Part shown: positions 25,220-30,120 of the stretch, one piece after another
How positions within the stretch are numbered: position 1 is the first letter of the stretch
Layout: every line of letters starts with the position of its first letter
Source: an uncultured Chloroflexota bacterium
Lineage (GTDB): Bacteria; Chloroflexota; Anaerolineae; Promineifilales; Promineifilaceae
Direction: 5' to 3'
Length of the DNA stretch: 44,691 bases
Assembly (NCBI GenBank): GCA_900696625.1
Contig: CAADGU010000239.1
Location: 1-44,691 of the forward strand
The notes under the pieces: generated by a model
What the model saw: the letters and a program-made list of their open reading frames with translations, nothing else
Databases searched by the model: none
What the model was told of the DNA's origin: nothing
Translations under genes and position numbers: made by a program

Positions 25220-25251
25220 ACGGTTTCCCGACCGCCGATTACCGTTCACGG
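25202..25251. repeat. heptamer array GTAATCG/GTGAACG with inverted copies
   Basis: Units GTAATCG (25202-25208, 25209-25215) and GTGAACG (25216-25222) are followed by inverted units CCGATTA and CCGTTCA (25235-25248). It covers the stop codons of both convergent genes: FAH (TGA 25217-25219) and the HlyD-like gene (ends 25246). Units differ by one base from those at 5165-5227. Confidence 0.85.
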
Positions 25252-27957
25252 TGACACATCCACAAACACCGTCATACCCCAACGCAGGGGCAGGTCGCCG
25301 GCATCCCCCAGTTCTATTGTTACCACGTAGGTCACATCGCCGCGCATTGGGGTGGCGACGCTGTCAATATCGGTTATAACGCCGCGCAATAAGGCGCCAG
25401 GGATGGCGTCCACGTTCAGTTCGGCTGCATTTCCCGGCTGAATGTTGATCACATCCAGTTCGGTCAGGTCACTGGTCTTCACCAACCAGTTACTCAAATC
25501 GGCCAGGCTAAGCACGGGTACACCCGGCGCTGCCAGTTCCCCCAACTCCGGCCGAATGCTGGCGACAATACCGGTAAAAGGGGCGCGCAGGGTGGTACGT
25601 GCCAGTGCCAATTCCGCTGCCCGCACGTTAGCCTGGGCCTGCAAGAGGGCTGCCTCCGCCTGGGCTACGCCCGCCTGAGCCTGGGTGACGGCCGTTTCTG
25701 CCTGGGCTACGGCCGTTTGCGCCAACTCCACCGCCACTTCCGCTTGCTTAATCTGTTCTGGCGTTGCCCCGGCCTCAGCCAGCGCCAGCCGCGCCTCTGC
25801 CAGATCCCGGTTCGCCTGGGCAATGGTTACGCCGCCGCTGGCTGCTGCCCGCTGCCCCGCCGTTGGCCCTACCAGCAGCGCATCCAACATAGCCTGCGCC
25901 GCCGCCACCTGCACCTGCGCCTGCTCCAATTCAGCGCGTTTTGTCTCCTCCACTGTGCCATACAACGGGCAAACTGTTTGCCCAGAACCATCCGGCAGGG
26001 CCACCTGCGTGCAACTGTCCAAAATAGCGTCGTATTCATCCTGGATGGCGCGCAAAGCGGCCTGGCTGGCGGCCACATTGGCCTGTGCTGCCGAAATTTG
26101 CGACTGTGGAATTTGCAAAACAGCATCCCGGTTGGCCGCGGCCTGGGCAATGCCGGCAGTGGCAGCCGCCACATCAAACTGAGCGGCAGCCACGGCCTCC
26201 GGGCGTGGCCCTGCCAGCAGCAGCGCCAACTGCGCTTCGGCCGCATTGACGCCGCTTTGTGTCGTTTGCACCGCTGCCTGCGCTGCCGTCAGGCGTGTCT
26301 GAGCCGCGGCCAGGGCGGCTTCAGCCATAGCCACCTCTGCCTCTGCCTGGCGCAGGCCAATTTCCTGGCTGCTGCTTTCTAATTGCAGCAGTGGGTCGCC
26401 GGCCTGCACGGCCTGGCCTTCTGACGCCAGGATTTCCGCCAACCGCCCGCCGCTTTGAAAAGAGAGGTCTACCTGGCGTTGGGGCACAATCACCCCTTCG
26501 GCGGTCACAATCTCGTTAGTGGGCGCCGTATTCTGGCGGGTGCTGGCGCCGGGTGCGGCGGCGGCGGTGGCAATGTCTACAAAGGCGGTCATGCCCCAGC
26601 GCAGCGGCAAACCGGCTGTGTCCGGCAAGGTGATGCGGACGCGGTAAGTCACCTCGCCCTGCGTCAGGCCGGCGATGCGGGCAATATCACGCACTGTGCC
26701 CGTCAGCGGGTGGGCAGGCAAGGCGTCAATGGACACGGCCGTACCAAACCCATCGGCAATCGCTACCACATCCTGCTCGGTCAGGTCGGTTGTTTCTACC
26801 AGCCATTGGCTGAAGTCGGCCAGCGTGACAACCGGCATGCCGGCGGTGACCACTTCGCCCAATTCAGCGTCTAGCCGGGCGATGGTACCGGCAAAGGGGG
26901 CGCGGAGTGTGCGTTGGGCCAATGCTTCCTGGGCGGCAGCCACCAGCGCTTCGGCCTGGGTAACGGTGGCCTGTGCCTGGGTAACGGCCGTTTCTGCCTG
27001 TTGTAGTCCAATGTCGGCCTCCGTTTTCGCTGCGATGGTGCGGGTGACGGCCGTTTCCGCAATGGCAATTTGCTCCGGCCTGGCCCCTGCCAACAGCAGG
27101 CTTAACTGCGCCTGAGCCGCGTCGCGCTGCGCCTGGGCAGTGCTGATGGCGTTGGCGGCGGCGGTGCGTTCGGCGGCAGTAGCGCCCGCATCCAGGTCGG
27201 CCAACGCGGCTTCGGCCGCCGCCAGATTGGCCGCCGCGGCATTGTATTGGGCCGTAATCTGGTCAATGGTATCCTGGGGCGCTTCTAGCCGGGTGGCTGT
27301 GTCCAGGGCGTCTTGCACCGGTTTTTGCGCTGCTTGCGCGGCCAGGATTTGGGCTTCGGCCAGCAGCCGCTCCCCGGCTGTGGCGCCTTCCAATGTCAAT
27401 GTCTGGCTGCCGGTGGCGGCGCTGATCTGCGCCTGGGCCAGGGCGACAACCGCTTCACTGACGGCAATTTGCGCGGCGGTGGGTGGCGCCTGGGCCAGCG
27501 CCAGGGCGGCTTCGGCGGCGTGAATGTTTACCTCAGCCGCGGCCACGCTGGCGGCGGCGGCTTCTCGCCCGGCCTGGGCTGCCGCCAGGCCGGCCTGGGC
27601 CAGGGCCAGAGCGGCTTCTGCCTGCTGCAAGGCAATCTCCTGGTCGGCGCTGTCTAGCCGTAGGATAGGGTCGCCGGGCTGTACCAGGCTGTCTTCCGGG
27701 GCCATGATTTCCACCACCTCGCCGGCAGCGGCAAAGGAGAGGCTGGCGTGGCGGATGGGCACTAGCTGGCCTTCGGCGGAGACTTTGCTGGCGCCGGTGT
27801 TGCCGACCTGGCTGTTGGCGTCAGGGGCGCCGGCAGTGAGCGTAGGGGAAACGGCCGTGCCTGCCCCGGTGGTGGCTGTAGGCTGCATTTGCCGGTAAAG
27901 ATAGTAGCCTCCCGCCAGGCTCAAGATGATGACGATGCCTATGATAAATTGCTTCAT
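25246..27957 (-). CDS. tandemly duplicated HlyD-type membrane fusion (adaptor) protein
   Basis: A 903-residue protein. GGAG before ATG 27957 sets the start. Residues 1-20 (MKQFIIGIVIILSLAGGYYL) form a membrane anchor. Two full adaptor modules follow, each with a half-lipoyl segment (GDPILRLDS / GDPLLQLES), very long Ala/Gln/Glu coiled coils, a second half-lipoyl (LRAPFAGTIARL near 349 / LRAPFTGIVASI near 787), a beta-barrel part (WLVETTDLTE / WLVKTSDLTE) and an end (PLRWGMTAFVD / PLRWGMTVFVD). The modules are about 440 residues apart. Module 2 has an added two-cysteine loop (DSCTQVALPDG to TVCPLYG). Such proteins link inner-membrane exporters to the outside. No exporter gene is adjacent. Confidence 0.85.
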   Translation of the reverse strand: MKQFIIGIVIILSLAGGYYLYRQMQPTATTGAGTAVSPTLTAGAPDANSQVGNTGASKVSAEGQLVPIRHASLSFAAAGEVVEIMAPEDSLVQPGDPILRLDSADQEIALQQAEAALALAQAGLAAAQAGREAAAASVAAAEVNIHAAEAALALAQAPPTAAQIAVSEAVVALAQAQISAATGSQTLTLEGATAGERLLAEAQILAAQAAQKPVQDALDTATRLEAPQDTIDQITAQYNAAAANLAAAEAALADLDAGATAAERTAAANAISTAQAQRDAAQAQLSLLLAGARPEQIAIAETAVTRTIAAKTEADIGLQQAETAVTQAQATVTQAEALVAAAQEALAQRTLRAPFAGTIARLDAELGEVVTAGMPVVTLADFSQWLVETTDLTEQDVVAIADGFGTAVSIDALPAHPLTGTVRDIARIAGLTQGEVTYRVRITLPDTAGLPLRWGMTAFVDIATAAAAPGASTRQNTAPTNEIVTAEGVIVPQRQVDLSFQSGGRLAEILASEGQAVQAGDPLLQLESSSQEIGLRQAEAEVAMAEAALAAAQTRLTAAQAAVQTTQSGVNAAEAQLALLLAGPRPEAVAAAQFDVAAATAGIAQAAANRDAVLQIPQSQISAAQANVAASQAALRAIQDEYDAILDSCTQVALPDGSGQTVCPLYGTVEETKRAELEQAQVQVAAAQAMLDALLVGPTAGQRAAASGGVTIAQANRDLAEARLALAEAGATPEQIKQAEVAVELAQTAVAQAETAVTQAQAGVAQAEAALLQAQANVRAAELALARTTLRAPFTGIVASIRPELGELAAPGVPVLSLADLSNWLVKTSDLTELDVINIQPGNAAELNVDAIPGALLRGVITDIDSVATPMRGDVTYVVTIELGDAGDLPLRWGMTVFVDVSP

Positions 27958-28009
27958 AGATTGACTCCATATGTGTAACTGCGTGACGGCCGTGCCGGTC
28001 GCGTTAAAA

Positions 28010-28038
28010 TTGACAAGCCCAGAGTGTACCGCTATAAT
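28010..28038 (+). promoter_or_regulatory. consensus sigma70 promoter
   Basis: TTGACA (28010-28015), a 17-bp spacer and TATAAT (28033-28038) match the consensus at all twelve positions. Start of transcription is expected near 28045. It drives the structured RNA and possibly, by readthrough, the S1 and infA genes. Confidence 0.85.
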
Positions 28039-28044
28039 CCCCCG

Positions 28045-28252
28045 CTTGGGTACTGTTGGCTGGATCATTCTCATTTTGGCGTTGTTTACCAATTGTTAAC
28101 CTGTGAAATACTTGAAACTGCACAGTTTGGGTATTGTCGGAGGCGCTTGTACCACTAAGTATAAACTTGAATAGCGGTTCGTAAACGACACATATTTTGG
28201 AAATGACTCGGCCAGTCCCACAAAAAAACTCGTGCGACGGTCGAGTTTTTTT
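28045..28252 (+). ncRNA. structured small RNA, possibly 6S-like, upstream of the S1 gene
   Basis: A region of about 208 nt from a consensus promoter to an intrinsic terminator, with no reading frame. Its ends pair over about 17 bp (28047-28069 with 28202-28220: UGGG/CCCA, ACUG/CAGU, UCAUU/AAUGA and pairs between). An 11/12-nt internal bubble follows (28070-28080, 28190-28201), then a 9-bp helix (28081-28089 with 28181-28189) and an inner hairpin (28107-28111 with 28131-28135, 28115-28119 with 28124-28128). Size, paired ends and central bubble fit 6S RNA, which binds RNA polymerase. The alternative is a regulatory leader of the S1 operon. The SRP RNA tetraloop motif is absent. Confidence 0.55.
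28222..28252 (+). terminator. rho-independent terminator or attenuator before the S1 gene
   Basis: AAAAAAACTCG (28222-28232) pairs with CGAGTTTTTTT (28242-28252) with a 9-nt loop. It ends 33 bases before the S1 ATG, so it either ends the small RNA or attenuates the S1-infA message. Confidence 0.8.
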
Positions 28253-28285
28253 ATCCTAAACCACTTGAGAAGAGAATTTATTAGC

Positions 28286-29782
28286 ATGATGGAAGATACC
28301 AATTTTGAAGAGTTCTTGGAAACACATGATTATGAGCTGCCCCAGGTTGGTGATATCCGCAAGGGGATCATCGTCGCGGTAACGCAGCAGGGGGTAATCG
28401 TTGATTTGGGCCTGAAGCGGGATGGGATTGTGCCCAGCACAGACCTGGGGAAACTGGAACCGGAGGAGCGGGCTGAACTTCATGTCAATGATGAAATTTC
28501 CGTTTATGTGATGAATACGGAAGCTCCAGATAGCTTGCAAGTATCTATCCATCTGGCCAAGATGAATCAGGATTGGGTCGAAGCCGAGCAATTGATGGAA
28601 ACGGGCGATATTTTTGAAGGGGAAGTGATTGGTTATAACAAGGGTGGCGCGATTGTGCCTTACGGCCGTTTGCGTGGTTTTATTCCCGCTTCCCATCTGG
28701 CAGCGCTGACGCGCGGTTTGAATGACCGGCAGCGCCAGCAAAAACTGGCGAAACTACGCGGTCAGAAAATCCCTTTGAAAGTGATTGAAGTGGATCGCCA
28801 CCGCCGTCGTCTGGTTTTTTCGCAGCGCGACGCCCAGAAAGAGTGGGACGAATTGCAGAAAGGCGAACTGCTGGACAGATTACAAGAGGGTGATGTGCTG
28901 CACGGCCGTGTGAGCGGCCTGCGTGACTTTGGCATCTTTGTAGATTTGGGCGGTGTTGACGGTCTGGTTCACATTTCCGAACTTGCCTGGCATCGCATTG
29001 ACCATCCCCGCGAAGTGGTGAAGGTAGGCGACGAGGTTGATGTCTATGTGATGAAAATTGACCGCGACGACCAGCGCATCAGCCTCAGCCGTAAAAAATT
29101 GCTGCCCAATCCCTGGGACACAGTGGAGCAACGGTATCATATCAACCAGTTGGTAGAAGGCTGCGTCACTCGCATTGTGGATTATGGCGCGTTTGCCGAA
29201 ATTGAGCCGGGCGTGGAAGGTTTGCTGCATCTTTCCCAGCTTTCGCGGGGTCAGGTGGAAAACGCCGGCGAGGTCGTTAAAGAAGGGGAAACCCATCTGC
29301 TGCGCGTCGTCAGCATCGAGAAAGACCGGCAGCGTATCGGTTTGAGTCTGCGGCAGGTCAGCGCCAATGAACAGATTGATTGGATGTCTCGTAAACAAGC
29401 CGAAGCGGGTACACCTGCTCCGGCGGAAACAAAGATTGACCAGACTGATGATGCTGTTGAGGAAGTAGCGGAAGCGGAAACGGTCGTACCGGTTGTGGCC
29501 GAAGTTGAAACTGCTGCCGAAATGACAACAGATAGCATCGAAAGTGAAGAAGTGACCGCCGTTGAGATAGACACCGACGTTGCCGTCGAGATGGATGCCG
29601 ACGTTGCCGCCGAGATGGACACCGACGTTGCCGCCGACGTTGCCACCGAGATGGACGCCGACGTTGCTGCTGAGGTGGAGACTGAGGCTGCCGTTGCTGA
29701 GGCTGTGGTGGATGAAGGCCCACTTCCCGAATCGGAATCTGTGATTGAGGAAACTGAACCACAGGAAGCTGAAGAAAACTAA
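28286..29782 (+). CDS. rpsA: S1-domain RNA-binding protein, ribosomal protein S1 type
   Basis: A 498-residue protein with four S1 domains at about 22-92, 105-175, 195-265 and 282-352; the third and fourth are most typical ([20 protein letters not shown] and [19 protein letters not shown]). S1 brings mRNA to the ribosome. GAGAAGAGAA upstream supports ATG 28286; the next codon pair gives a second ATG at 28289. The last 110 residues are very acidic and include tandem octads (D-x-D-V-A-x-E-M) at 429-464. infA follows two bases later. Placing the symbol rpsA rests on domain count and context. Confidence 0.82.
29570..29677 (+). repeat. 24-bp tandem repeat in the S1 gene tail
   Basis: Units at 29570-29593, 29594-29617, 29618-29653 (with a 12-bp internal duplication) and 29654-29677 each carry the core GCCGACGTTGCC or a close variant and keep the reading frame. 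They encode Asp/Val/Ala/Glu/Met octads. Confidence 0.85.
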
Positions 29783-29784
29783 GT

Positions 29785-30042
29785 ATGGCAAAAAACGATA
29801 AACTGGAAGTGGAAGGCACGATTATTGAACTGCTGCCCAACACCCAATTTAAAGTGGAATTGGATAATGGGCATCAGGTATTGGCATACTTGTCGGGTCG
29901 TATGCGCAAGTATTACATTCGCATTTTATTGGGAGACCGGGTGCGGGTGGAAATGACGCCATATGATCTGGCACGCGGCCGGATTACTTATCGTTACCGT
30001 AACCGGGCTGATGCTCCATCCAGCAGTAGTAGCGAAGAGTAA
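29785..30042 (+). CDS. infA: translation initiation factor IF-1
   Basis: An 85-residue OB-fold protein: [19 protein letters not shown], then [32 protein letters not shown] and RGRITYRYR, matching IF-1 along its full length; a serine-rich tail (SSSSSEE) is added. It binds the ribosomal A site during initiation. It starts two bases after the S1 stop, so both genes are cotranscribed; this arrangement differs from the usual infA site beside rpmJ in the ribosomal protein cluster. Confidence 0.93.
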
Positions 30043-30086
30043 ACCTGCTCCACTTTCTTGTTTGCCAGCCTGAATGAAATGATGAA

Positions 30087-30120
30087 CACGCTGCGAAATC
30101 TTCGCAGCGTGTTTTGTTTT
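30087..30120 (+). terminator. rho-independent terminator after infA
   Basis: CACGCTGCGAA (30087-30097) pairs with TTCGCAGCGTG (30101-30111) around a 3-nt loop, followed by TTTTGTTTT. It ends the S1-infA unit. Confidence 0.92.

Follow-up and report, generated by a model that had tools for sequence, protein, structure and literature searches.

A conserved leader upstream of the S1 gene in one Anaerolineae family, probably a transcription attenuator

Directly upstream of the gene for ribosomal protein S1, an uncultured Chloroflexota bacterium carries a compact unit of promoter, structured RNA and terminator, and we asked whether this RNA acts on its own, as a 6S RNA would, or governs transcription of the gene that follows it. 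The window (the whole stretch of DNA analysed, 44,691 nt) was examined by promoter scanning, RNA folding and covariance searches, and the region before S1 was compared across the genus, the family and the class.

A structured RNA between a promoter and S1

The promoter (TTGACA-N17-TATAAT, 28010–28038) matches at 12 of 12 positions with a 17-base spacer, and it is the only one of that kind found by a promoter scan of 26.5–30.5 kb. Like all features of the leader and operon described here, it lies on the forward strand. The leader RNA (28045–28252) presumably starts at about 28045 and ends with the U-run of its terminator (28246–28252), 33 bases short of the S1 start codon (ATG at 28286). The S1 gene (28286–29782) encodes a protein with four S1 domains followed by a repetitive, acidic tail, and infA (29785–30042; IF-1, TIGR00008, 115.8 bits) starts two bases past the S1 stop, an order of genes found in 29 of 30 loci. 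A 14-bp terminator-like hairpin 3′ of infA (30084–30114) probably ends the operon. Tandem repeats of 24, 36 and 60 bp make up the acidic C-terminal tail of S1 (29564–29693), and the open frame over S1 ranges from ~385 to 753 aa across relatives.

The gene upstream is divergent (mechanical open reading frame 25246–28092 on the minus strand, with a likely start near 27957). By eye, its product (25246–27957) is a protein of ~900 aa with an HlyD/biotinyl-lipoyl-like architecture that is seemingly duplicated. Because this gene points away from S1, no transcript from upstream can have its 3′ end at the leader terminator. The promoter scan found no second good promoter between the leader terminator and S1, and given this, the divergent neighbour and the shortness of the gap, S1 needs readthrough of the terminator.

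Folding of the RNA (28044–28253) gave −66.4 kcal/mol, compared with −50.3 ± 4.3 kcal/mol for shuffled sequences (z = −3.7; equalled by 0 of 200 shuffles). The ends of the leader pair in a closing stem (GGGUACU..GGCUGGAUCAUU with AAUGACUCGGCCAGUCCC), and fold and alignment place a 9-bp helix, P2, further in (28081–28089, GTTGTTTAC, pairing with 28181–28189, GTAAACGAC; the 5′ strand reads GTCGCTTTAC in neighbouring genera). The fold also contains a terminator (AAAAAAACTCG/CGAGTTTTTTT) and an inner hairpin, P3 (28103–28140), for which compensatory changes appear both within the genus and in a model-fitted alignment. On all of these points, namely a perfect promoter, a structured RNA with paired ends and a terminator ending just short of S1, the initial annotation had described the locus correctly.

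Conservation across the genus and family

By DNA similarity, the full element was found in six genomes of the genus, in one copy each and always 5′ of S1; conservation does not extend beyond the promoter, and the DNA upstream differs in several members. The family sample, collected via the S1 protein, comprised 46 usable S1 upstream regions and covered 21 genera. A 12/12 promoter (TTGACA-N16/17-TATAAT) lies ~270–420 nt before S1 in 43 of these regions and a terminator-like hairpin precedes S1 in 45, a count that includes one region with a more distant S1 and an unrelated hairpin (G032) and leaves out one missed by the script, in which a comparable hairpin has an interrupted U-run (G060). By computation, promoter and terminator 5′ of S1 are conserved across the family: an intrinsic terminator stands between promoter and gene, as in an attenuator, and the element keeps a 5′ UTR position before a ribosomal protein gene across relatives, as ribosomal protein leaders do.

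The terminator is mostly one recognisable sequence (CTCGGCY...RGYCGAGTTTT). Across 51 genomes, the pattern CTCGGCYN{12,42}RGYCGAGTTTT occurs in 24 and is sited at the S1 leader in 22; stray matches numbered five, in three genomes, and a reversed control pattern matched once. In whole genomes, a covariance model built on one genus (R1) had no matches at E < 0.01 other than S1 leaders from genera g1 and g5, and it is convincing for these two alone because the leader interior diverges so far that genera of one family no longer resemble each other there. No effector site was recognised in this fast-diverging interior.

Beyond the family, 38 regions from the class were checked and 10 have a terminator-like hairpin before S1; the other family of the order supplied four of the regions, two of which have the hairpin (G035 and G037). 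Two loci from another family of the class (L134 and L138, in G120 and G088) have two tandem terminator-like hairpins before S1. For a paralogous S1 gene, 12 upstream regions were checked and showed no 12/12 promoter and no such layout; two had any hairpin, in both cases >150 nt away. In the genome of the window, the second S1-type gene (G000:C88:16055-17116, 39% identical) is without a terminator leader, and a weaker promoter-like site (11/12) lies ~118 nt upstream of it, at a position conserved in many relatives.

This distribution bears on whether the promoter and terminator could serve an independent small RNA, with S1 expression left to constitutive leak through the terminator. A perfect promoter and a terminator do bound a discrete 208-nt unit, and in the window genus the closing stem and a local terminator can coexist. 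However, the element stands before S1 in six of six genomes of the genus, every homologous leader recognised in the family does likewise, and the interior is poorly conserved beyond the nearest genera, unlike that of most trans-acting RNAs, which together make this reading unlikely.

Alternative pairing of a shared strand

In most genera the terminator is formed by strands B (AACUCGGCC) and C (GGCCGAGUU), and B is also complementary to strand A (GGCUGAGUU), which lies in roughly the first 25 nt of the RNA. With B able to pair with either partner, the leader RNA can form a putative antiterminator (A:B) or a terminator (B:C). Of 44 leaders folded with the RNA ending after B, 34 had at least 4 of 10 B bases paired to the first 60 nt, and mostly to the first 25; scored by genus, the A:B complementarity gave a Fisher p of ~1e-7, a value to be read with the shared ancestry of the genera in mind. 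Freeing B costs 5–12 kcal/mol in most leaders and forming B:C gains 12–26 kcal/mol. These modelled energies match an attenuator in which A:B would form first and B:C would be the stabler end state in most genera.

The B:C arms coevolve between genera, each genus's own duplexes being stronger than swapped ones (p = 5e-5). The swap test gave a weak signal for A:B alone (p = 0.04, 0.14 and 0.21), because the cores of A and B are nearly invariant. In the three nearest genera (g1, g5 and g16), the extensions of B are wholly different (AGUCCC, UAUGCC and UUGUACC), and each matches its own genus's A and its own C. About a third of genera (g6, g8, g10, g12, g18 and others) have no clear A. In the fitted alignment, which leans towards the structure and is misaligned in the interior for g16, changes on both sides affected 25 of 63 pairs, against 15.5 ± 2.3 when shuffled and 4–10 when slid.

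In the window, strand A (GGGTACTGTTGGCTGGATCAT, 28048–28068; family consensus GGCTGAGTT) pairs with B when the RNA is folded up to B. Strand B and its extension (GACTCGGCC AGTCCCAC, 28205–28221) serve two structures, as the 3′ side of the closing stem and as the 5′ arm of a longer terminator hairpin shared across the family, a double use that the initial annotation had missed: the "closing stem" that it took for 6S architecture is the A:B pairing. The 3′ arm of the terminator is strand C with its extension (GTGCGAC GGTCGAGTT, 28232–28247), as indicated by the B:C pairing and its coevolution, and B:C comprises 15 pairs, with 100% of cells paired across the six genomes of the genus. Because they share strand B, the closing stem and the long terminator are alternatives.

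In g1, g5 and g16, the loop of B:C repeats the 5′ arm as B′ (AAAAAAACTCG, 28222–28232 in the window), which forms a shorter, local terminator with C that is compatible with the closing stem. For the window RNA, A:B and B′:C together are the minimum (−66.4 kcal/mol), and forcing the long terminator gives −57.9 kcal/mol. As B′:C can coexist with A:B, A:B would weaken, not abolish, termination in the window genus, where the modelled switch would trade a strong terminator for a weak one instead of turning termination on or off. B′ is probably real, because one genome (G005) preserves B′:C through A-U to G-C/G-U changes that keep the pairs (GGAAAACTCG with CGAGTTTTCT). A pairing that competes with the terminator is present in the family; about a third of genera do not show it clearly, and B′ makes it incomplete in the window genus.

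Proposed control of the S1–infA operon

The best explanation, and in our judgement a probable one, is that the RNA is a conserved 5′ leader of the S1–infA operon acting as a transcription attenuator; most likely, these bacteria decide on making S1 by stopping or continuing transcription. The initial annotation had raised attenuation of S1 and infA as a possible second role, and conservation of promoter and terminator across the family, together with the alternative pairing of B, makes that case stronger than it was then. We infer that A:B is the antiterminator and that the choice between the two pairings is regulated. From the perfect promoter, RNA polymerase would first make ~160 nt of self-folding RNA, in which strand A at the 5′ end (GGCUGAGUU-like) would pair with strand B (AACUCGGCC-like). 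Once strand C (GGYCGAGUU) emerges, B would swap A for C, creating a strong intrinsic terminator and a stop before S1; alternatively, the A:B domain would hold and polymerase would continue into S1 and IF-1.

The likeliest candidate effector is S1 itself. In gamma-proteobacteria, rpsA is under autogenous control in which S1 represses its own mRNA at translation initiation, and S1 is described as preferring AU-rich single strands (PMC10931766) and as unfolding structured mRNA (PMC3858243). Free S1 in excess might open the A:B domain and bring about termination, turning off its own operon, a proposal that we advance tentatively. A protein with little sequence specificity would be compatible with the poor conservation of the leader interior. 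Feedback by S1 through its own mRNA leader is the likely shared logic, but in gamma-proteobacteria it acts at translation initiation, whereas here the site would be a premature terminator 5′ of the gene. There is also a slim chance that the terminated 208-nt leader accumulates as a discrete small RNA that binds S1 or 30S subunits in trans, making it an operon switch and at the same time a sponge that reports and buffers free S1.

Comparable devices are known elsewhere. The B. subtilis L20 infC and L10(L12)4 rplJL leaders adopt two alternative folds, one of them an intrinsic terminator (PMC10931766, PMC4538822), and share with the S1 leader their place before a ribosomal protein operon; here, however, the operon is S1–infA, the phylum is another, and no rRNA-like binding site was recognised. 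The rimP-leader and rpsL-leader, found by comparative genomics, are likewise premature terminators before translation genes, and the rimP terminator is conserved in sequence too (PMC2965389), but sequence and layout are unlike those of the S1 leader. That 2010 survey of premature terminators mentions neither rpsA nor Chloroflexi, rpsA is not mentioned in a 2020 list of 20 ribosomal leaders, and an rpsA attenuator was not described in any of the open-access papers found. Searching the whole window against Rfam 15 at gathering cut-offs gave no match of any family, so the leader matches no described leader family there, and at E ≤ 5 the region around it gave just one unrelated minus-strand chance match. 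It is a new ribosomal protein leader, absent from Rfam, in a setting where S1 feedback is otherwise translational only in the literature found; the device itself is ordinary and, as far as that literature shows, previously undescribed at this place. If the attenuator reading is true, the S1–IF-1 operon can be controlled by stopping transcription across one whole Anaerolineae family, and Rfam would gain a leader family that it lacks, from a phylum in which RNA biology is sparse; the leader also lets the RNA-melting activity of S1 be tried in vitro as a genetic switch. In genus g11 (L075 and L076), a bS21-like gene, identified by eye, lies downstream of S1 and before infA; by that call, the attenuated operon would there be common to three initiation-related proteins.

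An ON-type metabolite riboswitch, in which a small ligand would stabilise the A:B-closed domain and prevent termination, is another reading. ON riboswitches are laid out with a closing stem whose 3′ strand is common to the terminator, and these leaders have that layout. Nevertheless, the interior, where an aptamer would sit, is unrecognisable between genera of one family, the gene encodes a translation protein, and no Rfam riboswitch matched, so that a riboswitch seems very unlikely.

Little probability also attaches to ribosome-mediated attenuation, in which translation of a short leader open reading frame would choose between A:B and B:C. GGAGG/TGAGG-like motifs occur at 70–140 nt in 9 of 21 genera (3.4 ± 1.6 in shuffled sequences, 1 of 300 being as high), and tiny open reading frames follow some of them. 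That interval was chosen post hoc, however, start codons after the motifs are no commoner than in shuffled sequences (4 vs 2.8), and they are lost within the genus (G004 and G005). A leader peptide was rejected, as short open reading frames with SD-like motifs are not enriched over shuffles. The window has such a motif at 28139–28143, and the leader motif is possibly a 30S contact or a decoy.

The initial annotation had favoured a 6S RNA, and that the leader is one, or a second 6S copy binding RNA polymerase, has next to no probability: a length near 200 nt, paired ends and a promoter and terminator of its own recall RF00013, but the leader matched that model at no threshold tried (neither gathering nor E ≤ 5), homologous leaders in other genera retain the terminator and 5′ strand and not a 6S-like bubble, and this genome has a genuine 6S RNA on a different contig (G000:C453:6865-7071, 67.5 bits vs a cut-off of 46.4). 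The negative result is informative because the model works in this clade, where 53 of the 59 genomes searched have a match that exceeds its cut-off. The main 6S identity was rejected on the covariance search and the location of the real 6S RNA, and no evidence was found for one RNA serving both as 6S RNA and as leader. At ~207 nt, the 6S RNA of this genome (L050) is longer than in most other genera searched.
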